A stretch of DNA of 64,000 nt from Siphonodentalium dalli (taxonomy: Eukaryota > Mollusca > Scaphopoda > Gadilida > Siphonodentaliidae): contig CP136065.1 of the NCBI GenBank assembly GCA_032622095.1, forward strand, positions 55,113,949 to 55,177,948. Direction: 5' to 3'. The notes beneath the pieces were generated by a model. It made no database searches and had not been told where the DNA came from. It was given only the letters and a program-made list of their open reading frames with translations. Position 1 is the stretch's first letter. Every line of letters begins with the position of its first letter. Both the position numbers and the translations under genes were made by a program. Positions 1-56,272 of the stretch are shown in pieces.

Positions 1-177
1 CCAGTAGCACTGTTACAAGTGAAACTAAATAAATATTACTTCTCGTATCTTTCGCTTTGGTAAAGATGCATGCTATGTGCACGTTTCCGTTCATATTCTG
101 GCACCATATGGTTTTCTATGACGAAATGCCCGCAAAAACAAAAAAACGTGCAAACTTGCCAGCGTATGAACGTACCC
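1..177. mobile_element. MITE abutting the donor of stalk exon 1 (left part outside window)
   Basis: Positions 1-177 match 2812-2984, the right part of the complete MITE in front of stalk exon 3. The right terminus reads GAACGTACCC followed by TTA and then the exon donor. The terminal inverted repeat is of the GGTACGTTCATACACTGGC type. Confidence 0.6.
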
Positions 178-181
178 TTAC

Positions 182-268
182 CTGAAGGGATTGTTGTTGT
201 TGTTGTCGTTGTTGCTGTTGTTGTTGTTGGTGACATAGTCGGTTCCGTCGTCTGGTCAGTAACAGGTG
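182..268 (-). CDS. Thr-rich stalk exon 1 of locus 1 (partial gene)
   Basis: Minus-strand internal exon of 87 bp. Acceptor tatatag precedes CACCTGTTAC and the donor is CCTTCAG|gtaaggg. It starts and ends in phase 1, so it can be gained or skipped without a frameshift. It encodes PVTDQTTEPTMSP followed by a run of Thr with one Ala and then IPS, a short mucin-like O-glycosylatable spacer. It is the last of three tandem copies in locus 1 and the shortest (28 full codons plus split codons). The phase fits directly after the CTLD-3 exon at 10463-10683. The plus-strand poly-Val reading frame is only its shadow. No transmembrane exon follows inside the window, so the gene continues beyond the left edge. 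Exon edges and phases are read from the sequence; the stalk function is inferred. Confidence 0.75.
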
Positions 269-1164: not shown

Positions 1165-1250
1165 GTTCATATTCTGGCACCATATGGGTTTCTATGACGA
1201 AATGCCCGGAAAAACATACCGTGCAAACTTGCCAGCGTATGAACGTACCC
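1165..1250. mobile_element. Truncated MITE abutting the donor of stalk exon 2
   Basis: Only the right portion of the MITE is present, from GTTCATATTCTGGCACCATA to GAACGTACCC. The sequence before it (CTATTACAGGCATTTG) is shared with 8920-8937, so the copy looks like the product of unequal recombination. Confidence 0.55.
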
Positions 1251-1254
1251 TTAC

Positions 1255-1398
1255 CTGAAGGGATTGTTGTTGTTGTTGTTGTCGTCGTTGTTGTTGTTGT
1301 TGTTGTTGTCGTCGTTGCTGTTGTCGTCGTTGTAGTTGTTTCTGCTGCTGTTGTTGTTGGTGATATAGTGGGTTCCGTCGTCTGGGCAGTAACAGGTG
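1255..1398 (-). CDS. Thr-rich stalk exon 2 of locus 1
   Basis: Minus-strand phase 1-1 exon of 144 bp, with acceptor tatatag|CACCTG and donor TTCAG|gtaagg. It encodes PVTAQTTEPTISP, then about 30 residues almost entirely Thr broken by a few Ala and Glu, then IPS. The Thr codons are ACA and ACG in an (AAC/GAC)n-like tract, seen as GTT/GTC on the plus strand, so replication slippage could change stalk length without breaking frame. It is the second of three tandem copies, 48 codons long against 29 and 45 for its neighbours. A mucin-like spacer between the CTLD and the membrane is the likely role. Confidence 0.75.
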
Positions 1399-2567: not shown

Positions 2568-2570
2568 TAA

Positions 2571-2984
2571 GGGTACATTCATGCACTGGCAAGTTTGCAC
2601 GGTATGGTTTGCAGATATTTTGTCGTAGAAAACGATATGGTGCCATAATATGAACAGAAACAAGCACATAAAGTGCATCTGTGCCACAGCTAACTACGTG
2701 CGAAGTAAAATCTATGTAGTCCCTCTAGTAACGATGCTACCAGAATTTGCCTGTAAATATCATGGAATTATCTCGCAAGAATAAATCATACAGGTATTTG
2801 AAGGCAAATTCCAGTAGCACTGTTACAAGTGAAACTAGATAAATTTTACTTCTCGTATCTTTCGCTTTGGTAAAGATGCATGTTATGTGCACGTCTCCGT
2901 TCATATTCTGGCACCATATGGGTTTCTATGACGAAATGCCCGGAAAAACATACCGTGCAAACTTGCCAGCGTATGAACGTACCC
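2571..2984. mobile_element. MITE inserted in the splice donor of stalk exon 3
   Basis: Complete 414-bp copy. The left terminus GGGTACATTCATGCACTGG follows TAA (2568-2570); the right terminus GAACGTACCC is followed by TTA (2985-2987) and then C2988, the complement of the donor G. The locus-2 counterpart reads AACATACCTGAAGG with no insertion, so this is a precise insertion at intron positions +2 to +4. Confidence 0.7.
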
Positions 2985-2988
2985 TTAC

Positions 2989-2996
2989 CTGAAGGG

Positions 2997-3028
<32 letters not shown>

Positions 3029-3123
3029 CGTCGTCGTTGTTGTTGTCGTCGTTGTAGTTGTTTCTGCTGTTGTTGTTGTTGTTGGTGATATAGTCGGTTC
3101 CGTCGTCTGGGCAGTAACAGGTG
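2989..3123 (-). CDS. Thr-rich stalk exon 3 of locus 1
   Basis: Minus-strand phase 1-1 exon of 135 bp with acceptor tatatag|CACCTG and donor TTCAG|gtaagg. It encodes PVTAQTTEPTISP, a short Thr/Ala/Glu segment, about 20 consecutive Thr and IPS. It is the first of the three tandem stalk exons met by transcription and is framed by MITEs on both sides (2571-2984 and 3204-3594). The upstream exon is CTLD-3 part B (10463-10683), which ends in phase 1 with a G, giving Ala at the junction. Confidence 0.75.
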
Positions 3124-3203
3124 CTATATAATAAAACAAAACAAAAATAAACATACCGCAAACTTCAGCGACGAAAATAGAAGCGAACAAAACCCATTAC
3201 TAA

Positions 3204-3594
3204 AGGTACGTTCATACACTGCCAAGTTTGTATATATTACAGGCATTTTCTCATAGAAACGCCAATTGGGGCCAGAATATGAACGGCAACATTCATATAA
3301 GATGCATATTTACCAAAAGTAACGAGATGAGAAGTAATATTACGATGGTTCCACGTGTAACGGTGCTACTAACACATTGCTTAGATTGCCTGTATAATTT
3401 ATAACTATGTACAGGCAAATTTCAATAGCGTCACTACTAGTGCAACTACATAGTTTTTATTTCTCACGTAGTTAGACATGGTACAGATGCATTTTATGAT
3501 AATTTTTCATTCGGTGTCTGGCACAGAGTAGCTCTCTATACCGAACTGCATGCGAAAGAATATCTGGCCAATTTGCAAGTGTATGAACGTACCC
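3204..3594. mobile_element. MITE (391 bp) upstream of stalk exon 3, TSD TAA
   Basis: Same termini and length as 1479-1869. TAA occurs at 3201-3203 and 3595-3597. Removing the element gives CATTACTAAACGACGCAAAT, which aligns with uninterrupted CATTGCGAAACGGAAAGCAA in locus 2 near 49828. Confidence 0.7.
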
Positions 3595-3821
3595 TAAATG
3601 ACGCAAATCAAATGAAATCCAACAGAATTCTATAACGCGCTATATATAATTTGCGAGCCACATTTGCGCATGCAGGATAAATTGCATGGTAATTAAGTGA
3701 TTCCGCGTGTAGGTTATGTCGTGTAACGTGTAGGCATTAAACCGCCATTTTATGAAAATGTCCAGTCATAAACATGGCTTGTTTTGTTTGGAAGATAGCT
3801 CAGGTTTAGTTATAAATATAA

Positions 3822-4189
3822 CTAGCCGATGAGCCCGACGTTGTCCGGGCTATTCAAAAACCAAATTTCAAGTCGATAGCTCCACCCGTTTCCGAGATCT
3901 GGTCTGCGCATGCGCGAAGCTGGCGTCGCACGGGCTCGGCGACCCGATAAAATTCGTACCCGGTGCAAGATACATTCACATACCAAATTTCAAGTCGATA
4001 GATCCACCCGTTTCCGAGATATCGTCTGCGCATGCGCTGCACGGGCGTCGGGCGCGCCAATACGACAACGACGACCGCCTGGTCAAACTACACACACGTA
4101 CCAAGTTTCGTCCCGATCGGTCGAGAATCGTAGATTTGTATAAATGACAGACAGACAGACAGACAGAGGTCTTCAAAATATATATGAGA
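3822..4189 (-). mobile_element. Short non-autonomous Helitron, tandem copy 1
   Basis: It runs from the complement of ...CATCGGCTAG to the complement of TCTCATATATATTTTGAAG, with a GTCTGTCT microsatellite just inside the 5' end and a 3'-terminal GC hairpin about 8 bases before CTAG. It contains about two copies of a roughly 122-bp internal unit (AAATTTCAAGTCGATAG...). No ORF belongs to it; the reading frames across it are repeat shadows. Confidence 0.8.
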
Positions 4190-4695
4190 CTAGCCGATGA
4201 GCCCGACGTTGTCCGGGCTATTCAAAAACCAAATTTCAAGTCGATATAGCCCCCCCCCCGTTTCCGAGATCTGGTCTGCGCATGCGCGAAGCTTGCGTCG
4301 CACGGGCTCGGCGACCCGATAAAATTCGTATCCGGGGCAAGATACATTCACATACCAAATTTCAAGTCGATAGCTCCACCCGTTTCCGAGATCTGGTCTG
4401 GGCATGCGCGAAGCTGGCGTCGCACGGGCTCAGCGACCCGATTAAATTCGTATCCGGGGCAAGATACATTCACATACCAAATTTCAAGTCGATAGCTTCA
4501 CCCGTTTCCGAGATCTCATCTGCGCATGCGCGAAGCAGGCGCCACACGGGCTCGCCAATACGACAACGTTCACCGCCTGGTCAAACTACACACACGTACC
4601 AAGTTTCGTCCCGATCGGTCGAGAATCGTAGATTTGTATCAATGACAGACAGACAAACAAACAAACAAACAGAGGTCTTCAAAATATATATGAGA
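4190..4695 (-). mobile_element. Short non-autonomous Helitron, tandem copy 2
   Basis: It abuts copy 1 with no spacer base, has the same termini and about three internal units of roughly 122 bp. Head-to-tail, end-to-end junctions like this are a known outcome of rolling-circle transposition. Confidence 0.8.
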
Positions 4696-5377
4696 CTAGC
4701 CGATGAGCCCGACGTTGTCCGGGCGACGTTGTCCGGGCTATTCAAAAACCAAATCCCGACGTTGTCCGGGCTATTCAAAAACCAAATTTCAAGTCGAAAG
4801 CTCCACCCGTTTCCTAGATCTGGTCTGCGCATGCGCGAAGCTGGCGTCGCACGGCCTCGGCGACCCGATAATAAAATTCGTATCCGGGGCAAGATACATT
4901 CACATACCAAATTTCAAGTCGATAGCTCCACCCGTTTCCGATATCTCTATTGCGCATGCGCGAAGCTGGCGTCGGACGGGCTGGGCGACCCGATAAAATT
5001 CGTATCCGGGGCAAGATATATTCACGTACCAAATTTCAAGTCGATAGCTCCACCCGTTTCCGAGATCTCGTCTGCGCATGCGCGAAGCTGGCGTCGCACG
5101 GGCTCGGGGACCCGATAAAATTCGTATCCGGGGCAAGATACATTCACATAGCAAATTTCAAGTCGATAGCTCCACCCGTTTCCGAGATCTCGTCTGCGCA
5201 TGCGCTGCACGGGCGCCGCACGGGCTCGCCAATACGACAACGTCCACCGCCTGGTCAAACTACACACACATACCAAGTTTCGTCCCGATCGGTCGAGAAT
5301 CGTAGATTTGTATTAATGACAAACATACAGACAAACATACAGACAGACAGACAGAGGTCTTCAAAATATATATGAGA
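4696..5377 (-). mobile_element. Short non-autonomous Helitron, tandem copy 3
   Basis: It abuts copy 2, with the same termini. It has about five internal units, and the 3' hairpin region is partly reduplicated (two to three GACGTTGTCCGGG motifs at about 4711-4770). The base after its 5' end is T5378. Confidence 0.8.
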
Positions 5378-7483: not shown

Positions 7484-8765
7484 GGGAAAGATATGCTTCT
7501 GATTAATTAATGGATGAATGTTGATGAAATGTGCTGTGGTTGTGAGAAGAATTGTCCTTATTCTGATAACATAAAGTCTTGTGTCTTTTCGTGCATGTAT
7601 CGTGAATGATGACGGTACAATTCTGATTACATAAAGTCTTGTGTCTTTTCGTGCATGTATCGTGAATGATGACGGCACAATTTCGTTATTATTGACCAGA
7701 TTTTAGTGGATGAATGTTGATGAAATGTGCTGTGGTAGTGGGAAGAATTGTCCTTGTTCTGATAACAAAGTCTTGTGTCTTTTCGTGCATGTATCGAGGG
7801 TTGCGCGCGCGAAGCTGGCGTCGCGAAGAATTGTCCTTGTTCTGATGAGTGCCGTTTTTTGTGAATGAGAGTGGAGAATGGGTGCTCTGGGCTTCTCCAA
7901 AATGCGACGTCGACGATTCCCGTGGGATAATGGCCCGTATATCTCTGTGCAGATGCTAATAACGTTGAATGGTAAACAAACGCTCTTTATAGCGATGCGT
8001 TAAAAACAAACGCTCATTAAATTATCACTTGATTAACCACCGCAGTGCCGTTTTTTGTGACTGAGAGTGGAGAATGGGTGCTCTGGGCTTCTCCAAAATG
8101 CGACGTCGACGATTCCCGTGGGATTTTACCTTTGGATCGTGGGGGGGGGGGGGGGTGAAAAAAAAATTCCGGCACGTATGCCGGGGTGGGTGGGTGGTCA
8201 AAGCCACCAACAAGCAATTTTTTCCGCAACTAAAAAAAAAAATCCTGCTTGTTTTTTTTAGTGTTTTGGCAATGAGTTGGGCTTCAAAACCACTTTGAAT
8301 GAGAGAAATAATGTAATTCTAACTGGTAAACTGACTGCAGGCAGTTATCGTGTTGTATTTTGTTGCAAATTTTGAAATCCAAGATGGCCGCTGGCAGCCA
8401 TGTTTTTTTGGCCGAATGACCTCAAAATGACTCATTCCTATTTACATGTCCATGTTAACATCCATGATAAATAGTATGTACATAAATTCATATACAGCTG
8501 TTTACAGTGAATTTCCCCCCGCAAATCTCTGTTTTAGTGTTAAAAGGGGGGTGGGTTTCAAAAAATGGTCGGAAAAACTGCCGAAAATGGGGGTGAGAGG
8601 GTACAAAAAATGATCGAAAGGGAAAAAATGCCATACGTGCCTGAAATATTTTTCCGACCCCCTCCCCCCCTGTTTGGATAGGAAGTTTGGTCTCGATCGG
8701 TCAACCCGTTTTCGATTCTATAAAGGACATACAGACAGACAGAGGTCTTCAAAATATATATGAGA
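7484..8765. repeat. Repeat fragments and a Helitron 5' end
   Basis: It contains further copies of the GAAGATATGC/ATGAATGTTGATGAAATG repeat, two tandem copies of AAAGTCTTGTGTCTTTTCGTG, a duplicated segment (GTGCCGTTTTTTGTGA...GACGTCGACGATTCCCG at about 7848-7923 and 8046-8121), a poly-G tract near 8140 and a Helitron 5' terminus ending at 8765. No supported gene. Confidence 0.5.
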
Positions 8766-9993
8766 TATACTATGGTGATTTATCCTTTATAACCCGTTAT
8801 AACTCAGCCGATCGCCACAAGCTCTTTTGAATCTACTGCTACAGAGTTATGCCTTTTGAAACGATATTTATTGATATACTGTCAAAGTCTTGTTAAATGT
8901 TATGCGACGAGATGTTCCCCTATTACAGGCATTTGTTTGAGTAGTCTCGTATTAATTATCGATGTCATATGCTCACTTTCTCAAGAATTGACAAGTTACT
9001 GAATCCGATTTTTGGCGCATCAGTTTGAATAGTTGTTCGTCACAAGAACACACATACAATGATCGGATTGCCAGACAATTAAGCAATGATATTAAGCGGC
9101 TTCACAATTTCACTGGGTCCATACCAAAATCGGGATATGTTGATGAATAACTTCTAATAAATGTTGTCTCACAATCAATTATGTGTTTTAATCGCTCGTG
9201 GCATGTGTATACTACAAGAAATGACATTTACGTCCAAATAGTAACTCCGATAATAGTCTTCATCATAAACATTCGAGATTTGCGATCGAAACTCGGAACG
9301 TTTGTGCTGGTTCTGTATCTATATATTTCAATACAGGAACCTTCCGGTTACAGACGCACTGATTGTTACCGAGTGCGGGGCGTTGTATTTTTGATCACGT
9401 GCACGAGAATCATGCAACAGATATAAAACAAAAATTGACGCCCATGGAACAACCTTGAATGAAAATGATGTTATATGGTTGTTGTATGGTTGCATAGTAA
9501 GATATATTAGATATGGAATTTGTTTACTTTGTCCGTAGTATGCACCACAAAGGCTAGAAACTGTGTTTGTTTTCAATTATTTGTTTACATTGAGAAGGGA
9601 GGTAGTGCACCGTTTGTGAAGCTTTATTCGTGTTCTTCGCCTCATTATTTTAACAAAATATGAATTTCACATGGTATGCATGATTAACACAACTAACTGG
9701 TAAGCGACATACTATAATTTAGATACAACACTTAACTAGTAATCAACAGAAAACCGACTCGCCACTTAAATTTTTCTGGTTACAAAACGTCAAACCGGAC
9801 AGAGAATGCGGAACCGGATTGTGTCGATTGCAAACTCCATGCAAGGTTTATCTCCCTTGATGACTCGAGAAAACCACTGCCACATGTGACATTTTTCTCA
9901 CATTTTGTACATGTTGTTGACTTCCGCGATATTAATATATCGAACAGAGCCACACGTTGCCTTGATGAAGCATCCCAAATATATAATAACAAG
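8766..9993. other. Intron of locus 1; no supported gene
   Basis: The first 170 bases continue the duplicated spacer interrupted at 3821. A minus-strand frame ending at 9780 (Cys-containing, with KCEKNVTCGSGF) follows a possible acceptor but has no recognisable domain and no counterpart in locus 2. Confidence 0.5.
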
Positions 9994-10440: not shown

Positions 10441-10462
10441 GTTAAACAGCGTTTCGACTAAC

Positions 10463-10683
10463 CTGCACGTTCGCACATAGCCCGTGTGTAATTGTCCCGA
10501 TTCGTACAATGGGTGTCATACCAGGTCCACGTTGAGCCGGCCATGAGCACACAGTCTCCATCCATATTTGGCTGACCGGCTTGCCAGTTGTATGTTTCGA
10601 TCACGTTGTCATGGTTAAGCCAAGTTGAACCGTTGAACGCAGTAGCTACCCATATACTCTCGTAACTTTGTATTGTGTTGAGT
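10463..10683 (-). CDS. CTLD-3 second-half exon, locus 1
   Basis: Minus-strand exon of 221 bp, acceptor cattaaag|ACTC, donor CGTGCAG|gttagt; it enters in phase 2 and leaves in phase 1. It encodes LNTIQSYESIWVATAFNGS, TWLNHDN, YNWQAGQPNMDGDCVL, WYDTHC and RAMCERA. This is the C-terminal half of a C-type lectin-like domain with the conserved final two cysteines. In place of the EPN/QPD motif there is QPN, and WYD replaces the canonical WND calcium-site motif. It lacks an ATG because it is an internal exon. Its twin at 51503-51723 has identical length and only a few substitutions. Extracellular glycan or ligand binding is the family role; calcium-dependent sugar binding is uncertain with these motifs. 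Confidence 0.85.
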
Positions 10684-14580: not shown

Positions 14581-15074
14581 AGGCACGTGAGGCCTTAGTT
14601 GTCGAAAATATTCATATTTGTTCCAATCACAGTAAACAGAAAAACATTAAAACGCATACAGTTTCGTTCATATATACCATGACCATCGCGTAAACAGCAT
14701 GTTATCATAAAGATTTACTATATGTTACCTAAGCAATAGCCTGATTGTGTTACAGAAGACAGTACAATGCTGCTGGCTAATCACACACAAATGGCATAAA
14801 CGCTCTTTATTCGTTCCATATCAGGAATTCACCAACAAAGAACGCTCTTTATGTTTACCATCATAATATAAACAAAAACAAGAAAAGTAACTTTTTATGC
14901 CTTTGTTTACATAACAATGGTCAAATATATGACAATAACATACTGTTTATGCGATATTTCTTATTTGTCTACGGACAAAGTCTGTCTACATTTTGTTGTT
15001 CTTTCTGTTTGTGGCGGTTTTCGACGGGTGGAAATATTTTCACAGGATACCCACCGCCAAGGCCAACCGTACCT
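14581..15074. mobile_element. piggyBac-like MITE, 494 bp, TSD TTAA
   Basis: Termini AGGCACG and CGTACCT form imperfect inverted repeats, with TTAA at 14577-14580 and 15075-15078. Excision restores LINE coding across KVFKKVVFKH. A copy of exactly the same length is at 23534-24027. The TTAA target is diagnostic for piggyBac-type transposition; no transposase is present here. Confidence 0.8.
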
Positions 15075-19510: not shown

Positions 19511-19538
19511 TTTAAATTGTGCTCAGTTTATGACTCAC

Positions 19539-19813
19539 CGTTCGCTTCACAAACAGCGATGGTCCCATAATAGACATATGCGTAAGCATTCCACAAACCA
19601 TCAGCTGTACTGAAAGCTGCATAATCCTCAGTCAGCCACTGACAACTTCCGTCAGCATAGCAGTACTCGCCCCAGTTGTACGGCTCGAACCTTCTCCAGT
19701 TTGTAAATGCGATAGCACTACCATCAGTCTTTACCCAAGTGTTTTCGTTCGCGGCGTCGCTAATTCCCATCCAACCGAGTGACCACTTCCAATCCAGGTT
19801 TCCTAGGAGCAGC
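19539..19813 (-). CDS. CTLD-2 second-half exon, locus 1
   Basis: Minus-strand 275-bp exon, acceptor attaacag|GCTGCTC, donor GCGAACG|gtgagt, phase 2 in and phase 1 out. It encodes LLLGNLDWKWSLGWMG (the WIG-like core), NTWVKTDGS, FTNWRRFEPYNWGEYC, EDYAAFSTADGLWNAY and YYGTIAVCEAN. The residues at the sugar-site loop read EPY rather than EPN and the WND equivalent is WNA, so classical mannose-type calcium site 2 looks lost. The penultimate cysteine expected near the WND motif is not present (AYVYYG). It is a full-length partner of 55998-56272. Confidence 0.85.
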
Positions 19814-20389: not shown

Positions 20390-20785
20390 GCGTTCACACC
20401 CTGGCAAATTTGTTTGGTATTTTTCTGTTATAGAAAACATTATGGTGCCAAAGCAACGACATGCACATAAAATACAACCTTACCAAACAATATGGTACCA
20501 TGCAACAACATGCACATACCATAAAACCTTACCAAAGCTATTCCCACGAGAAGGAAACTGCTATAATTCCGAATGTAACGGCGCAACTAACACATTCCTT
20601 CAAATACCTGTATGATTAATGTATAATATATATAGCATCTTACATTTGGAACTAACAAACATCGTACTTCTCACTTAGACAGACGCATTTTATAATAATG
20701 TTTGTGTTTATTTTCTTGTAAAGTATAGCTTTATGTAACGAAATGCCTGAACAAATTTCCGGCAAATTTGCGAGTGTATTTTCGG
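20390..20785. mobile_element. Diverged GTTCAYACNCTGGCAAATTTG MITE
   Basis: The ends CGTTCACACCCTGGCAAATTTG-like and GGCAAATTTGCGAGTGTAT-like are inverted. The interior shares ATAACACATTCCTTCAAATACCTGTAT-like blocks with the MITEs at 349-762 and 2571-2984. Confidence 0.45.
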
Positions 20786-32244: not shown

Positions 32245-32302
32245 TCTCATATATAATTTGAAGACCTCTGTCTGTCTGTCTGTTTGTCTGTTTGTCGGCT
32301 AG
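32245..32302 (+). mobile_element. 58-bp minimal Helitron derivative
   Basis: It has a 5' end TCTCATATATAATTTGAAG, a short GTCT repeat and then CGGCTAG. Everything between, including the 3' hairpin, is absent. The A at 32244 and the T of the next copy's 5' end flank it. Confidence 0.65.
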
Positions 32303-32883
32303 TCTCATATATATTTTGAAGACCTCTGTTTGGGTGTTTGTATGTTTGTATGTTTGTATGTATGTTTGTCTGTCTGTCATTTATACAAATCTACGATTCT
32401 CGACCGATCGGGACGAAACTTGGTACGTGTGTGTAGTTTGACCAGGCGGTCGACGTTGTCGTATTGGCGAGCCCGTGCGACGCCAGCTTCGCGCATGCGC
32501 AGACAAGATCTCGGAAACGGGTGGAGCTATCGACTTGAAATTTACTATGTGAATGTATCTTGACCCGGATACGAATTTTATCGGGTCGCCGAGCCCGTGT
32601 GACGCCAGCTTCGCGCATGCGCAGACGAGATCTCGGAAACGGGTGGAGCTATCGACTTGAAATTTGCTATGTGAATGTATCTTGCCCCGTATACGAATTT
32701 TATCGGGTCGCCGAGCCCGTGCAACGCCAGCTTCGCGCATGCGCAGACCAGATCTCGGAAACGGGTAGAGCCATCGACTTGCAATTTGGTTTTGAATAGC
32801 CCGGACAACGTCGGGCTGGGTAGAGCTATCGACTTGAAATTTGGTTATTGAATAGCCCGGACAACGTCGGGCTCATCGGCTAG
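32303..32883 (+). mobile_element. Non-autonomous Helitron, family 1 (same as 3822-5377)
   Basis: TCTCATATATATTTTGAAGA to the hairpin GCCCGGACAACGTCGGGC, CTCATCGG and CTAG. It contains about three ~122-bp internal units (complement orientation relative to 3822-5377). The 3' hairpin region is duplicated at about 32801-32870. Confidence 0.8.
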
Positions 32884-33812
32884 TCTATTATATATTGTGG
32901 AAGATCTGTTTGTGTGTTTGTGTGTGTGTTTGTGTGTGTAATCGATGAACTCGAAAACAGCCGACCCGATTTCGATGAAACTTGGTATGTGGGGGTATTT
33001 TCGGGCCAGGAGTAACATAGGCCTATTGATTTTCAGATCCGATGTCAACTTTTCACGTGCCGAGGTCAAATCTGTTTTTACGCTGTGTTACGAGACTTTC
33101 ATTTGAGTTCGGTGCTTACAAATCGATTCGAAACAGCGCGAATAATAAAATGCCAGTCATAATAATGACACTGTGAGAATCTTTCGTGTTTCCTCTTTCC
33201 AACGATATATAATGCGTATGTATCCGTTTTAGTTATCTGCCTCAATTACCAAGAAGAAGTGGTACTATCTTCCATCAGGATAAAAACAATGCGTAACTTC
33301 TATGACGTCGTTATCTAGAGGTCATAACGTTAGATCACGTTAACGCTTAACCGGCCGATGCATTTGACTGTTTCAGACGTCTTGGCGATATCTCGGGCAC
33401 CGATGGTAATTTATCTTTACGTTGAAACTTGATAATTAATGAGCGTGTGTATATGAGGCGCGTTTATATACTTGAGTGGAAATCAAATCGGGTTAAACTG
33501 GCGGATTTTTACGGACGAAATTTGATGCATAGTGTATCTCGGTATCCGCTGGGGCGATTTCCCGGTATCCGCTGGGCCGATTTCCACCATTTTTGGGGTG
33601 TTGGTGTTTGACCCCACCTGACCTTGACCTTCAAAATGGTCAATTCAAGGTCAAATCGCGTAAAACCGGATGGATTTCGACGGGTACTTTTGTCGGGTAC
33701 TTTTGTTCGGACACTTTGTTCTGGACGGGTCAAATCGTGACCCCACTTGACCTTGGCCTTCAAAATAGACAATTCAAGGTCAAAGCCCGGACGAAGTCGG
33801 GTCACCTTCTAT
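32884..33812 (+). mobile_element. Non-autonomous Helitron, family 2, third array member
   Basis: It starts TCTATTATATATTGTGGAAG directly after the CTAG of the previous element. Its body is almost identical to 31153-32098 and it ends with the hairpin plus TCACCTTCTAT (CTAG mutated to CTAT). Confidence 0.75.
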
Positions 33813-40104: not shown

Positions 40105-40429
40105 TTTAACCTCAACAAAAGAGCAGCAACACAACAAATTTACACTTGAATGGACACGATAAATAATTCTAAGATTGCCATAGAATGTAATAGAGCCTAG
40201 GTTTGATGATCGAATTTCAAGGGATTTCATGCCACCCATATGTACCGATTGGCGATATGACACCACCGTGTAGCAGTTACCGGCATTCAGTACACGAGCT
40301 TATCGTCCTAAAAATCGAACCATGGATCCGATGGCTCACACTGTTCTATCAAGTGGGGTCTTCGATGCAAACCACACAGTACGTGGCTTAAAGCGACTCA
40401 TTATACATAGTTTGGCCTCGAATTAGTGT

Positions 40430-40980
40430 GCGTTCATACAGTTGCGTGTTTGACTGGTATTTTTTGCAGGAATTTCGTCATAGAAAAACCATATGGTGAA
40501 ATAATATGTACGGCACCATGCATATATATAAAATGCATCTTTACCAACCTAACGACAAGAGAAGTAAAATTGTGTGTTGCTTCACATGTAACGGTCCTAC
40601 TGACATTTGCCTTCAACAAGCTGAATGAGTTATTCTTGCGATATAATTGCATTGTAGCAAATTTCGGTATCAACGCTATAGGTGAAACAACAGAGTTTTT
40701 ACTGATCACGTAGGTAGCTGTGGTGCAAATGTGCCTTGCATTTAGTTGCTGGCTTTTCGACACAGAAAGCTATAACTTGATCGAAAACGAGCGCAAAAAT
40801 GCATATGTATACCACAGCTACATGTAGCTATGAGAGAAGTAAAAACTCTGTAGTTCTACCTGTAGCGATGCTACTACTACATGTATACGGAAATTTGCCT
40901 GTAAATAGTATGCAGTTATCTCGCAAGAATCAAGCATGGAGGTATTTGAAGGGCAAATGTTACATGTAGTAGCACAGATA
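40430..40980. mobile_element. Diverged GTTCATAC-type MITE sequences
   Basis: Blocks such as ACCATATGGTGAAATAATATG, AAAATGCATCTTTACCAA and TCTCGCAAGAATCAAGCATG match the interior of the MITEs at 349-762 and 2571-2984. Two partial copies appear to be present. Confidence 0.45.
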
Positions 40981-47127: not shown

Positions 47128-47196
47128 CTGACCAGGTTCTTCCTCTGACATTTGGTGATATAGTCCGTACTTTCGTTGTCTGGCTAGTAACAGGTT
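47128..47196 (-). CDS. Short Thr-poor linker exon, locus 2
   Basis: Minus-strand 69-bp exon, acceptor taatccag|AACCTGTTAC, donor TGGTCAG|gtacgt, phase 1 both sides. It encodes PVTSQTTKVRTISPNVRGRT and WS. The start PVT.QTT…TISP is the same as in the Thr-rich stalk exons at 182-3123 and 49584-49763, but the Thr tract is absent. It probably represents the pre-expansion form of that exon, or a contracted one. It joins 49584-49763 upstream and the TM exon downstream in frame. Confidence 0.65.
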
Positions 47197-47639
47197 CTGG
47201 ATTATGGAAAAAAAAGTACTGTAGATGTCAGTGGACGCTTCGGTGAAAGTGCAACAAAAAAGGAGCAATACCGGGCATGCCATGACCGGGCTTCATTGTC
47301 ATTGTTATATCCCAACATAACTCGTTGGAGATCCTATATATATTCAACTGTAATAGGTGAATATGGATAATATCGGCTTGTGACTTCTATACGAGAGGCA
47401 TCACCCATTAACATATTTCACACTAAAATATTATTTAAGAACAGTGTCGTATACTAAATTAGTACCATGTGTGTTTTTGTGACGGATAACATGACCAGAT
47501 CCTTACGAATGGATAATCACGATGCCACACAATAAGGAAGTAAACGAACATTCAAATTGTTTAAACAGTGTTATGGAAGAGCGATTGAGTATTCATGTTA
47601 CTGTAATTTAGAAAGGTATACTTGCGCGATTATTAAATA

Positions 47640-49285: not shown

Positions 49286-49583
49286 ATTAGTTTATGTCTT
49301 AAATCTTAAGTCATAAACTAAATTATAATTAAATTATTAAAATTGATTAATTCGTAATGTAAACCAACTAATTATATAGGTGTCTCTTTTTAGTTGAGTA
49401 TAACTATATATAATAGGTAAATCCAGGATGTGCCTGGCTCGTTACTGCCGTAACGACGGGAAAAACTCGGCGATATGGATACACGTATTGGTACACAAGG
49501 ATGATATCGACCTGTAAATTATGCTGTAATGCATGGTCCACAGATATACGGAGTCTCTAAACGTGGTTTCAAATTCAACATAC

Positions 49584-49763
49584 CTGAAGGGATCGTTGTT
49601 GTTCGTGTTGTTGTTGTTGATGACGATGATGTTGTTGTTGTTGGTGATGTTGTTGTTGTTGTTGTTGTTGATGATGATGTTGTTGTTGTTGTTGTTGGTA
49701 GTGGTGGTGGTGGTGTTGTTGTTGATATAGTCGGTTCCGTCGTTGACTGTGTAGTAACAGGTA
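49584..49763 (-). CDS. Pro/Thr/Ser-rich stalk exon, locus 2
   Basis: Minus-strand 180-bp exon, acceptor ctatag|TACCTGTTAC, donor CTTCAG|gtatgt, phase 1-1. It encodes PVTTQSTTEPTISTTTPPPP followed by long Thr runs broken by Ser, Pro and one Arg, ending TIPS. Mucin-like spacer between CTLD-3 and the membrane. Single copy here, against three in locus 1, and lacking the flanking MITEs, so this is the best picture of the uninterrupted exon environment. Confidence 0.8.
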
Positions 49764-51431: not shown

Positions 51432-51502
51432 ACAGTTTTTCGCAAGCTCCAGTTATGAAAGTGTTAAATATTATGTTTGAGTTTAACAGCGTTTCAACTG
51501 AC

Positions 51503-51723
51503 CTTCCCGTTCGCACATAGACCGTGTGTAATTGTCCCGATTCGTACAATGGGTGTCGTACCAGGTCCACGTTGAGCCGACCATGAGCACACATTCTCCA
51601 TCCATATTTGGCTGACCGGCTTGCCAGTTGTATGTTTCGACCACGTTGTCATGGTTAAGCCAAGTTGAACCGTTGAACGCAGCAGCTACCCATATACTCT
51701 CGACATTTTGTGTTCTGTTTAGT
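51503..51723 (-). CDS. CTLD-3 second-half exon, locus 2
   Basis: Minus-strand 221-bp exon, acceptor tattaaag|ACTAAAC, donor CGGGAAG|gtcagt, phase 2 in and 1 out. It encodes LNRTQNVESIWVAAAFNGST, NWQAGQPNMDGECVLM, TWYDTHC and RSMCERE. Compared with 10463-10683 it differs at roughly a dozen residues, many near the N-terminus (NRTQNV for NTIQSY), while the core is unchanged. QPN and WYD motifs as in locus 1. Confidence 0.85.
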
Positions 51724-52549
51724 CTTTAATAAAAAATAGTATAAAAATATACATGACTACAGACTTGGAAACCGTGATATTTGAACCCAAATATATGTAA
51801 CCAGAAGATTCATATATGTTTAATATAATTGTCATTCCGTTACACGTGTGTCACATTTTGGCCATATGACTTATTCCAGATTAAACACATCCACCCAGCA
51901 ATTAAATACAAACAATGTGGTGTAAAACTAGTTTTCTGACAAAATGTTAGATCTACTCACCATTTCAGAGAATTCGTTTGCATAAATACGGGCAGTAAAA
52001 GAACTGTACATGTACCAGGCGAACATGGATGGAGGGCGTAACAGTTGTTCATGTACCAGGCAAACATGTATCATTACCCAAATATTGCACTCTATATTCG
52101 GGTTAAATTTGAATTTGGGTGGTGAATGCCCCCAAATGCACCAAAATCCCTCTCTAAAGATGAGCACAGGCGTACACAATTATGTGCTCTGGTTCTTCAG
52201 GTACACTTGATTATTTGGGGTTACCACGTTTTATCCGAATTATTAGACGAATAGTGCTATACATATCTCGTTATATTATATTTGTAAATTCTCCAGTGAC
52301 AGAACGTGGGTTCCCGACGTCATACACAATAGAAGGTGAATTTTATAGTTTATATTCTTTATCTCTGACCCATTCACATGTCCCTGGGCATATTACCAGA
52401 TATATCAATATATACGATATAACAGTCACTGGTATGGTATATATTGGTTTCGTTGCTATTTTCCCCAGGGGCCTGTAGATTCATTAACATTAGAGGATAT
52501 GGGGAAAATACAAAAGAATGATAGAATGAAGACAGTTTTATGTACTCAC
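51724..52549. other. Intron between CTLD-3 halves, locus 2
   Basis: Aligns with 10684-11288; extra ~200 bp relative to locus 1. Confidence 0.65.
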
Positions 52550-52715
52550 ATGTTGCTCAGCAGAAGGGTAAATGTGTCGGGCTCTAAATGAATGAGACGT
52601 CCACCGAGTCCAGCGCAGTAGCTTTCCGCCTCTAAAGCGTCAACATGGCCGTTACCTAACCAGAAGCACTTCGCCGAAGTTTCGTAATAAACGGGTCCGA
52701 CTGAGGTGCAGAAAT
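52550..52715 (-). CDS. CTLD-3 first-half exon, locus 2
   Basis: Minus-strand 166-bp exon, acceptor tctttgatag|ATTTCTGC, donor AACAT|gtgagt, phase 1 in and 2 out. It encodes DFCTSVGPVYYETSAKCFWL, ALEAESYCAGLGGRLIHLEP and LLLSN. Close twin of 11289-11454, with changes concentrated after the GGRL strand. Confidence 0.85.
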
Positions 52716-53438
52716 CTATCAAAGATAGATAATCGCGCATGTAAGTGGATCACGGATAATAGTGCAATACATGCAAATAGGTTATGGTGATTTTTCAAGG
52801 TTCATTGTCCTCTTGTAACGCAAATCTAAAAGTCATTGAGTCAGAACAACATGGCAGAAGCATGTACTGTTCACGCACATGTATGCTGCATTGAACAAGT
52901 ACATGTCAAGTGATGGCTGTCCGACTCGCGCACCTATACGTCATACCGAATGTCCATTTGTATAATCAATACAAGCTCGTGATCACATATAAATGTATGT
53001 TGTATTGTTACTATTATTATTAGTATATTATATATGCATGTACCCTATCCCGAGCGATTATTATACGGCAATTTACATTATACGCTCGGCTGTTTATACG
53101 AGTGTTATACCGACCGGAACCCGAATGCTTTCCAGTTAGCCCCGGGTATGGCTATATAAGGAGTTTGTGTTGGTGTCCAATGCAATCCTTCAAAACTCCA
53201 ATGTTGACTGAAGGAATGAAAATATTCGAATAGTGTCCTCAAAACTAAATGTGTTCAAAGGCTACCACCCCGTGTTTCGTACGCCGGGTTGAGTGTGTTT
53301 TGGAGCCGTGCGCCGGATTCCGACTCTATTGTCCCGACTGTGTAAAGCGGATCCCTTTCCAGCGAAATGTACAATTTTGCTATTTTTATTCTCATATTGT
53401 TTGCACTATTTATGCTTCCGAAACTATACCTGTCGTAC
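52716..53438. other. Intron, nothing recognised
   Basis: Shorter than the locus 1 equivalent (1.45 kb). Confidence 0.4.
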
Positions 53439-53579
53439 CTGCTGTATATTCTGGAGTACTGTTGTATATGAGTGTCGATGACGTTGCTACTGGTGTTGCT
53501 GTTGCAGCCGATGTAGTGGGTACGGTGACCGATACCATTGTTACATTAGCAGCTGTGTTGTCAGTTGTCCAGTCAGTTG
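53439..53579 (-). CDS. Ser/Thr-rich stalk exon between CTLD-2 and CTLD-3, locus 2
   Basis: Minus-strand 141-bp exon, acceptor ccgtacag|CAACTGAC, donor ACAGCAG|gtacga (a second in-phase donor, CGACAG|gtatag, lies 9 bp further and would add three codons), phase 1-1. It encodes ATDWTTDNTAANVTMVSVTV, a Thr/Ala/Val stretch and STPEYTA. Contains NVT and NST sequons. Twin of 12905-13045. Confidence 0.75.
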
Positions 53580-55460: not shown

Positions 55461-55997
55461 AATGTGGCAAACACAATTCTAGGTATCTATGTAATTAGAA
55501 GTGACACAAATAGGCATCTATATCGAGCAATAATAATGGTACATCTATATGCAAATGCACACCGATGGAGTGTAATATGTCAGACCGTTATTACATGTAC
55601 ACGCAGTCGATCGTTTAATTAGCTAACCGGATATCCGTTAAGCAAATAACAGATTACATTTGTGCCTAGACTTCAAATGGTGAAGCAAAACGAAACGTGT
55701 CAACGCTATGTCATAAGCATAAGACGAATTTTCTCACTCGTTTCCACTTGAGTAGACCTTCACTCGATGAACCAATTGTTATATCAGTGACTTTCGTTGA
55801 ATAATCATTGACACAGAATCATCTACTCGGATATATAAACATCATATATGGTAAAGTGTTGAGTCGTTTCAAGTGTAACAGTGTGACGGCTCTATTGTTA
55901 TTCATCAACGAACGCGTGTATGATCTTATCCGGTTTAAGTGTGAAGTTTACCTCAATTAACATACACTCGCAAAGTGTGCCTAGGTTTGTAACTCAC
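55461..55997. other. Intron, nothing recognised
   Basis: No repeats matched. Confidence 0.35.
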
Positions 55998-56272
55998 CGT
56001 TCGCTTCACAAACAGCGATGGCTCCAGAAAAGTTACAGAAGTAATCTGCCCACACACCATCAGCTAATGTAAATGCCGCACAATCTTCATGCAGATTATA
56101 ACAAACACTATTCGCAAAGCAGTAAGTTCCCACATCATTCGGCTCTCTCCGCTTCCAGTTTGCAAATACGACAGCGCTACCATCAGTGTTTACCCACGTG
56201 TCTTCGATCATGACATCGGTGACTCCCATCCAACCGAGGGACCACGTCCAATCCAGGTTTCCCAAGAGCAGC
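55998..56272 (-). CDS. CTLD-2 second-half exon, locus 2
   Basis: Minus-strand 275-bp exon, acceptor ctttaacag|GCTGCTC, donor GCGAACG|gtgagt, phase 2 in and 1 out. It encodes LLLGNLDWTWSLGWMG, DTWVNTDGS, FANWKRREPNDVGTYC, LHEDCAAFTLADGVWADYFC and GAIAVCEAN. Same length as 19539-19813. This copy keeps EPN, the mannose-type motif, and the cysteine after the WND position, where it reads WAD. Its first-half partner exon was not found up to the right edge, so either it lies beyond the window or the copy is incomplete. Confidence 0.85.

Follow-up and report, generated by a model that had tools for sequence, protein, structure and literature searches.

A single Tourist-like MITE probably inserted into the TAA of a consensus splice donor, CAG/GTAAGT (the slash marks the exon end), in one of the two copies of a C-type-lectin gene. 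The donor core GTAAG would have been kept, and the exon would later have been duplicated together with the inserted element. We assign this reading, in which use of the donor is a prediction, a probability of about 0.8.

Host gene and genomic context

The window (the whole 64-kb stretch of DNA analyzed) is eukaryotic in character, with lectin exons separated by introns that have GT donors. Two colinear copies of a C-type-lectin gene, locus 1 and locus 2, lie on the minus strand and correspond through the following matches, whose bounds are those of the match and not of exons:

19537-19812 (locus 1) / 55996-56271 (locus 2): matching segment
12903-12983 (locus 1) / 53437-53520 (locus 2): matching segment
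11288-11440 (locus 1) / 52549-52701 (locus 2), minus strand: lectin domain, first part
10461-10658 (locus 1) / 51501-51698 (locus 2), minus strand: lectin domain, second part

When joined, the lectin parts of locus 1 match the Pfam family PF00059 (Lectin_C), for which three of three proteins pass the cut-off of 22.6 bits, the third barely (28.2, 29.6, and 22.9 bits). Comparison of one lectin domain with solved structures returned IgE Fc receptor II entries, representing 9 distinct sequences (best E value, 4.6e-07). Between the loci, the dN/dS ratios of the lectin parts are 0.77, 0.46, and 0.54, values that are too imprecise to prove constraint. The part at 10461-10658 / 51501-51698 has a dS of 0.051, compared with 0.279 and 0.530 for two others, and this low value may be due to gene conversion. 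The lectin parts are followed by a threonine-rich stalk exon, which is present three times in locus 1 and once in locus 2; all four copies have lengths that are multiples of 3 and an open threonine frame.

Two further features of the region were noted. A third, diverged stalk-like exon (47152-47214) is devoid of the threonine run, matches the exon start at ∼75%, and has a possible donor, GTACGT, at its end. A repeat of 122-bp tandem units occurs in both orientations, at 3834-5377 and 32245-32884, and its first copy includes a GACAGACAGACA run.

Insertion site and empty site

The insertion was located at the donor of stalk exon 3, and the same position in the paralogue is free of the element. 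The features concerned are as follows:

2989-3123, minus strand: stalk exon 3 (135 bp, or 45 x 3; open Thr-rich frame)
2983-2988, minus strand: regenerated 5' splice site GTAAGG, a putative donor (sequence read)
2985-2987, minus strand: exon-side target copy TAA, donor positions +2 to +4 (sequence read)
2571-2984, minus strand: MITE A (414 bp; terminal inverted repeats [TIRs] GGGTACRTTCATRC...; near-palindromic throughout)
2568-2570, minus strand: far target copy, reading TTA at present and differing by one base from the exon-side TAA
2353-2567, minus strand: intron stretch beyond MITE A, continuing into paralogue 49359-49579 (homology match)
49584-49763, minus strand: locus 2 stalk exon, without the element (180 bp)
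49578-49583, minus strand: empty site, the 5' splice site GTATGT of the paralogue (sequence read)
3204-3594, no strand assigned: MITE B, a related element close to the exon 3 acceptor side (flanking TAA at 3201-3203 and 3595-3597)

Read directly on the minus strand, exon 3 ends with CCTTCAG/G, after which come TAA and the start of the MITE, GGGTACG. The G of the donor is at 2988 and the T at 2987. This reading, together with the empty site in the paralogue, bears out the claim of the earlier note that a MITE lies inside a stalk-exon splice donor. It also agrees with that note in that the 3-bp target duplication (TAA, 2987-2985) spans the T of the GT and in that, at the level of the sequence, a usable-looking GTAAGG is left after the insertion. 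The two target copies of MITE A differ at their middle base, TAA on the exon side versus TTA on the far side.

In the colinear paralogue, ∼47 kb away, the donor CCTTCAG/GTATGTTGAA stands directly after the exon end at 49584. Homology between the loci stops sharply at MITE A and is found on both sides of it. On the left, 2353-2567 matches 49359-49579 (78.0% over 223 columns, with gaps farther out), and on the right, 2986-3021 matches 49581-49619; both are local matches. Beside the break, the ungapped identity is 22/25 on the right and 27/30 on the left, the latter for a target of 3 bp, the only length that fits (4 to 11 of 30 for eight other lengths). These local matches and ungapped flanks were used throughout, and a global alignment of the whole region, which was misplaced in ACA repeats, was set aside. 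With gaps left out, locus 1 and the paralogue are 83.4% identical in the post-donor intron and 89.4% identical on the acceptor side.

The case named in the earlier note as fatal to its reading was that the locus 2 sequence had arisen by deletion, and the clean 3-bp empty site argues against it. A precise excision there is nevertheless conceivable: MITE A would then be older than the gene duplication, and the empty site would be its footprint. Elements of the PIF/Harbinger superfamily can excise precisely, which speaks for such an event. However, MITE B marks another point at which the homology of the two loci ends (3204 / 49835), so that at least one more event would be needed. This objection is weakened in turn by the search for a second empty site, in which the sequence past MITE B gave no locus 2 match better than shuffled sequence (of 200 shuffles, 124, 87, and 101 reached the score for copies 2, 3, and 1, respectively). 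We regard excision as improbable; it is compatible with the rescue of the donor, and the account of how the donor was preserved would be unchanged by it.

The element and its relatives

The ends of MITE A, GGGTACATTCATGCACTGGC and GGGTACGTTCATACGCTGGC, are inverted repeats with a G-rich start, and, excluding gaps, the element and its reverse complement are 78.4% identical. Its minus strand folds with an MFE of -211.7 kcal/mol, compared with -107.3 kcal/mol for the lowest shuffle; this control is rough, consisting of 20 mononucleotide shuffles for each MITE, in which the plus-strand letters were shuffled while the minus strand was folded. Matches to the MITE terminus with at most 3 mismatches number 11 in the 64-kb window, where 0.53 are expected, and none of 100 shuffles reached 11. 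Exact TIR patterns had no matches in viral_contigs or in genome_contigs, as expected for a eukaryotic element. Diverged MITE relatives were observed at 20391-20779 and 40425-40958; the first seems to be TAA flanked near both ends, and the second is apparently rearranged.

Three copies of MITE B were compared. In copies 2 and 3, TAA stands at either end, and the flanks of copy 1 are CAA/TAA; the first TIR base is A at exon 3 (AGGTACG) and G in copy 1. These flanks also bear on whether the target of MITE A could instead have been the 2-bp TA of a Stowaway/mariner-like MITE, with one base lost in locus 1. If the TIR is read as AGGGTAC, both ends are indeed TA flanked, but the ungapped left flank fits a 3-bp target at 27/30 and a 2-bp target at only 9/30. 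MITE B copies 2 and 3, moreover, have TAA on both sides, and the TA reading does not hold on their right side. A TA target is thus highly improbable, and MITE A is best classified, by its target and TIR, as a putative Tourist-like MITE.

Target bases and donor strength

The target reads TAA on the exon side, TTA on the far side, and TAT in the paralogue. An ancestral TAA requires two changes (T/A at +4 relative to the paralogue and an A-to-T change in the far copy), whereas TTA or TAT requires three. Because parsimony gives TAA and because MITE B is flanked by TAA, the donor before insertion was probably GTAAGT and not the GTATGT of the paralogue, a reconstruction that draws on few bases. The insertion would then have changed +6 alone, from T to G.

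The three donors were scored by their pairing with the 5' end of U1 and with a human donor matrix. Pairing energies are -12.1 kcal/mol for GTAAGT, -11.5 for GTAAGG, and -8.3 for GTATGT (-8.0 with the 9-base donor); the corresponding matrix scores are 12.6, 11.4, and 9.6 bits. The present donor therefore appears slightly weaker than its putative predecessor, yet stronger than that of the paralogue. The suggestion of the earlier note that GTAAGG is arguably better than GTATGT holds for the comparison with the paralogue (-11.5 versus -8.3 kcal/mol), but not as an improvement over the probable starting sequence GTAAGT (-12.1 kcal/mol). Donor improvement was accordingly rejected as the main reading.

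True improvement would follow if the target had been TAT, as in the paralogue; the insertion would have produced GTATGG, and a later selected change of T to A at +4 would have given GTAAGG. The paralogue does read GTATGT, and the weakness of GTATGG (-7.7 kcal/mol, 8.4 bits) would have created pressure to change. Against this, the TAT target costs three changes rather than two, with the far copy altered at two bases (TAT to TTA); the related MITE B uses TAA; and +4 differs between the gene pair elsewhere too, the donor of the first stalk exon being GTAAGC in one and GTACGA in the other. On balance, a TAT target seems quite unlikely.

With the TAA target that we prefer, the first base of the TIR matters for pairing with U1: directly after the TAA, a G gives -11.5 kcal/mol, compared with -8.3 for A, -8.0 for C, and -8.1 for T. 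The far target copy is preceded by the terminal C of MITE A and has no GT. A second possible donor, GTACGT, is located 6 nt onward within the TIR; it is in frame and weak (-5.8 kcal/mol, 6.8 bits).

Duplication of the exon unit

The other two stalk exons of locus 1 have the same donor, CAG/GTAAGGGTACG, as exon 3, and each is accompanied by a copy of MITE A:

1255-1398, minus strand: stalk exon 2 (144 bp; donor as in exon 3; duplicate of the exon 3 unit)
1165-1250, minus strand: MITE A copy at exon 2, truncated to the donor end
182-268, minus strand: stalk exon 1 (87 bp; donor as in exon 3; duplicate)
1-177, minus strand: MITE A copy at exon 1, extending past the window edge

The units match one another beyond the exons: 1165-2070 versus 2899-3793 at 95.6% over 913 columns, 1-997 versus 2811-3831 at 87.9% over 1049 columns, and 89-961 versus 1165-2070 at 85.0%. 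The first 89 intron bases are identical in units 3 and 2, and identity among the three units is 93.1 to 100% over the segments compared, gaps left out. Three separate insertions were rejected on the grounds of these matches. Thus, the earlier note was right that exons 1 and 2 have the same arrangement, with the same donor, but the arrangement was copied there by duplication, and one insertion took place rather than three.

Exon 3 is probably the original copy, since the sequence past its MITE A continues into the paralogue (2353-2567 / 49359-49579). The divergence of the exons themselves, estimated from low-complexity alignments, does not follow this simple order: at synonymous sites, exon 3 has a divergence of 0.325 from exon 2 and 0.222 from the paralogue. 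The higher divergence from exon 2 may be caused by the alignment of repeats or by gene conversion. Of the 15 changes that separate exons 3 and 2 in these alignments, 11 are synonymous. Stalk-exon dN/dS, taken from alignments that are likewise of low complexity, is below 1 in five of six pairs and 1.3 in one (exon 1 versus locus 2).

Other repeats were observed around the units. A ∼180-bp repeat (988-1167 / 8765-8937, 92.8% identical) ends within 3 bases of the MITE cut at exon 2 (1165), and a dispersed repeat at the end of duplicated unit 2 (2059-2233) has copies at 14913, 23854, 44753, and 56276.

Predicted effect of the hairpin on splicing

Whether the regenerated donor is accessible may depend on how much of MITE A has been transcribed. 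The costs of opening the donors were computed from equilibrium folds without proteins, whereas in the cell, U1 could bind before the far arm is transcribed. For exon 3, the cost is 3.8 to 6.1 kcal/mol at six intron lengths between 50 and 417 nt (3.8 at 417 nt) and rises to 7.2 at 418, 10.7 at 421, and 11.6 kcal/mol at 500 nt, to be compared with -11.5 kcal/mol for U1 pairing. The donor is therefore predicted to become buried in the MITE A hairpin after transcription of the far TIR, which, with the far target copy, would pair with it. At 430 nt, the cost is 9.8 kcal/mol with TAA in the far copy and 11.1 kcal/mol with TTA, so that masking would come mostly from the TIR and not from the changed base. 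Exon 2, with its truncated element, has costs of 4.8 to 6.1 kcal/mol at the same seven lengths and 9.8 kcal/mol with the upstream MITE B arm, which likewise is predicted to pair on the donor side; the value for exon 3 with both the hairpin and the upstream MITE B arm is 13.2 kcal/mol, and that for locus 2 is 5.9 to 6.2 kcal/mol throughout.

Exons 2 and 3 were also seen to lie between inverted, related MITE arms (1165-1560 and 2899-3290), with an MFE of about -135 kcal/mol and a donor cost of 9.8 kcal/mol. Exons placed between inverted MITE arms are, on these folds, candidates for skipping or for circular RNA.

It is conceivable, if on the unlikely side, that the hairpin or the cryptic donor in the TIR interferes with splicing and that exon 3 is skipped or variably spliced, a loss that would be tolerated as each stalk exon is in phase 1 at both ends and dispensable. 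The opening cost of up to 11.6 kcal/mol with the complete hairpin, the weak in-frame GTACGT within the TIR, and the stalk exon lengths in multiples of 3 all favor interference; conversely, the cost of 3.8 to 6.1 kcal/mol over 50 to 417 nt implies that U1 could bind cotranscriptionally, and an open frame is kept in the exon copies. Such interference is compatible with the insertion and donor rescue proposed here. It is doubtful that MITE A acts further as a kinetic splice switch, in which fast binding of U1 would include exon 3 and slow binding would let the completed hairpin hide the donor. The change of the far copy from TAA to TTA would, in such a switch, extend the hairpin through the duplicated target into the donor. 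If this were true, the length of the stalk would vary with transcription speed, and in a more general form, G-starting, TWA-targeting elements would be preadapted to settle in GTAAG donors.

Proposed mechanism

According to our preferred reading, one Tourist-like (PIF/Harbinger-type) MITE would have inserted into the TAA of the consensus CAG/GTAAGT in one of the duplicated C-type-lectin gene copies. Duplication of the 3 bp would leave GTAA on the exon side, where the first base of the TIR, a G, would replace the G at +5, keeping GTAAG. Because the TAA duplication is joined to a G-starting TIR, GTAAG would be restored in either orientation; both ends of MITE A start with GGG, and the outcome should accordingly not depend on orientation. 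The far target copy, following the terminal C, would offer no GT and would not compete. Later, the exon and its MITE-bearing flank would have been duplicated at least twice, which would account for the arrangement at stalk exons 1 and 2. The insertion site, the empty site, the length of the target, and the open frames are observations; the TAA target, the order of events, and use of the donor belong to the interpretation.

The rarity of such a hit can be gauged from the window, which includes 2943 TWA sites. Among the putative donors (12 examined, 10 of them nonduplicate), 3 of the 10 have TWA at +2 to +4, namely, GTAAGC, GTTAGT, and GTAAGG, the last being entered in its presumed preinsertion form, GTAAGT. 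On the basis of these three sites only, a random TWA insertion would reach such a donor about once in a thousand times. Families of such elements usually have many copies in a genome. A donor hit, unlikely for one insertion, is thus expected over the many copies of a family, and the harmless cases are those that remain.

The case illustrates how a transposon insertion at the most sensitive part of an intron can leave the signal nearly intact. In annotated eukaryotic genomes, survival at +4/+5 of 5' splice sites is predicted to be more frequent for G-starting TWA elements than for other superfamilies. If the hairpin masks the donor, the locus would also provide a natural test of cotranscriptional U1 binding.

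Comparison with known systems

MITE A resembles the Tourist-like MITEs of the PIF/Harbinger type in its 3-bp TAA/TTA target, the GGG start of its TIR, its size of a few hundred base pairs, and its strong hairpin. Tourist elements have TWA as their target, in an account that also names PIF/Harbinger transposases (PMC12595863); here, the gap at the empty site is 3 bp, and the copies, TAA and TTA, differ by one base. Among the tabulated silkworm TWA families, two of three start with GGG (GGGTC and GGGCC) and one starts with AGCC (PMC2997013), and both TIRs of MITE A have such a G-rich start. What differs from the Tourist-like MITEs is that the target at exon 3 is itself a splice donor. No description of the same arrangement was recognized in the literature search, within the text available for the sources, which is weak evidence of absence.

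Three known systems come close. Introner families co-opt a 5' splice site from the TSD (PMC9860276), and described introners carry inverted repeats together with direct repeats overlapping exon/intron boundaries (PMC7789003). As in MITE A, the duplicated target supplies the 5' splice site beside the TIR. In contrast to introners, MITE A enlarges an existing intron and creates none, with the 3' splice site presumably being the old one; the splice site appears to be older than MITE A, because the donor occupies the same position in the element-free paralogue, unless the element was excised there. In [D1,2] stwintrons, an internal intron lies between G1 and U2 of the donor and is spliced out first (PMC12403724). 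The likeness is that the 5' donor of an intron already in place is interrupted by an insert; MITE A, however, sits after +4, nothing separates the G from the T of the exon 3 donor, and no internal intron is evident. Finally, MITEs of mulberry are found at alternative 5' and 3' splice sites and are associated with alternative splicing (PMC6593561), whereas at MITE A the original donor core is kept. Set beside these systems, the transposon hit in a lectin-gene splice donor is a neat and understandable accident, not a new kind of system.
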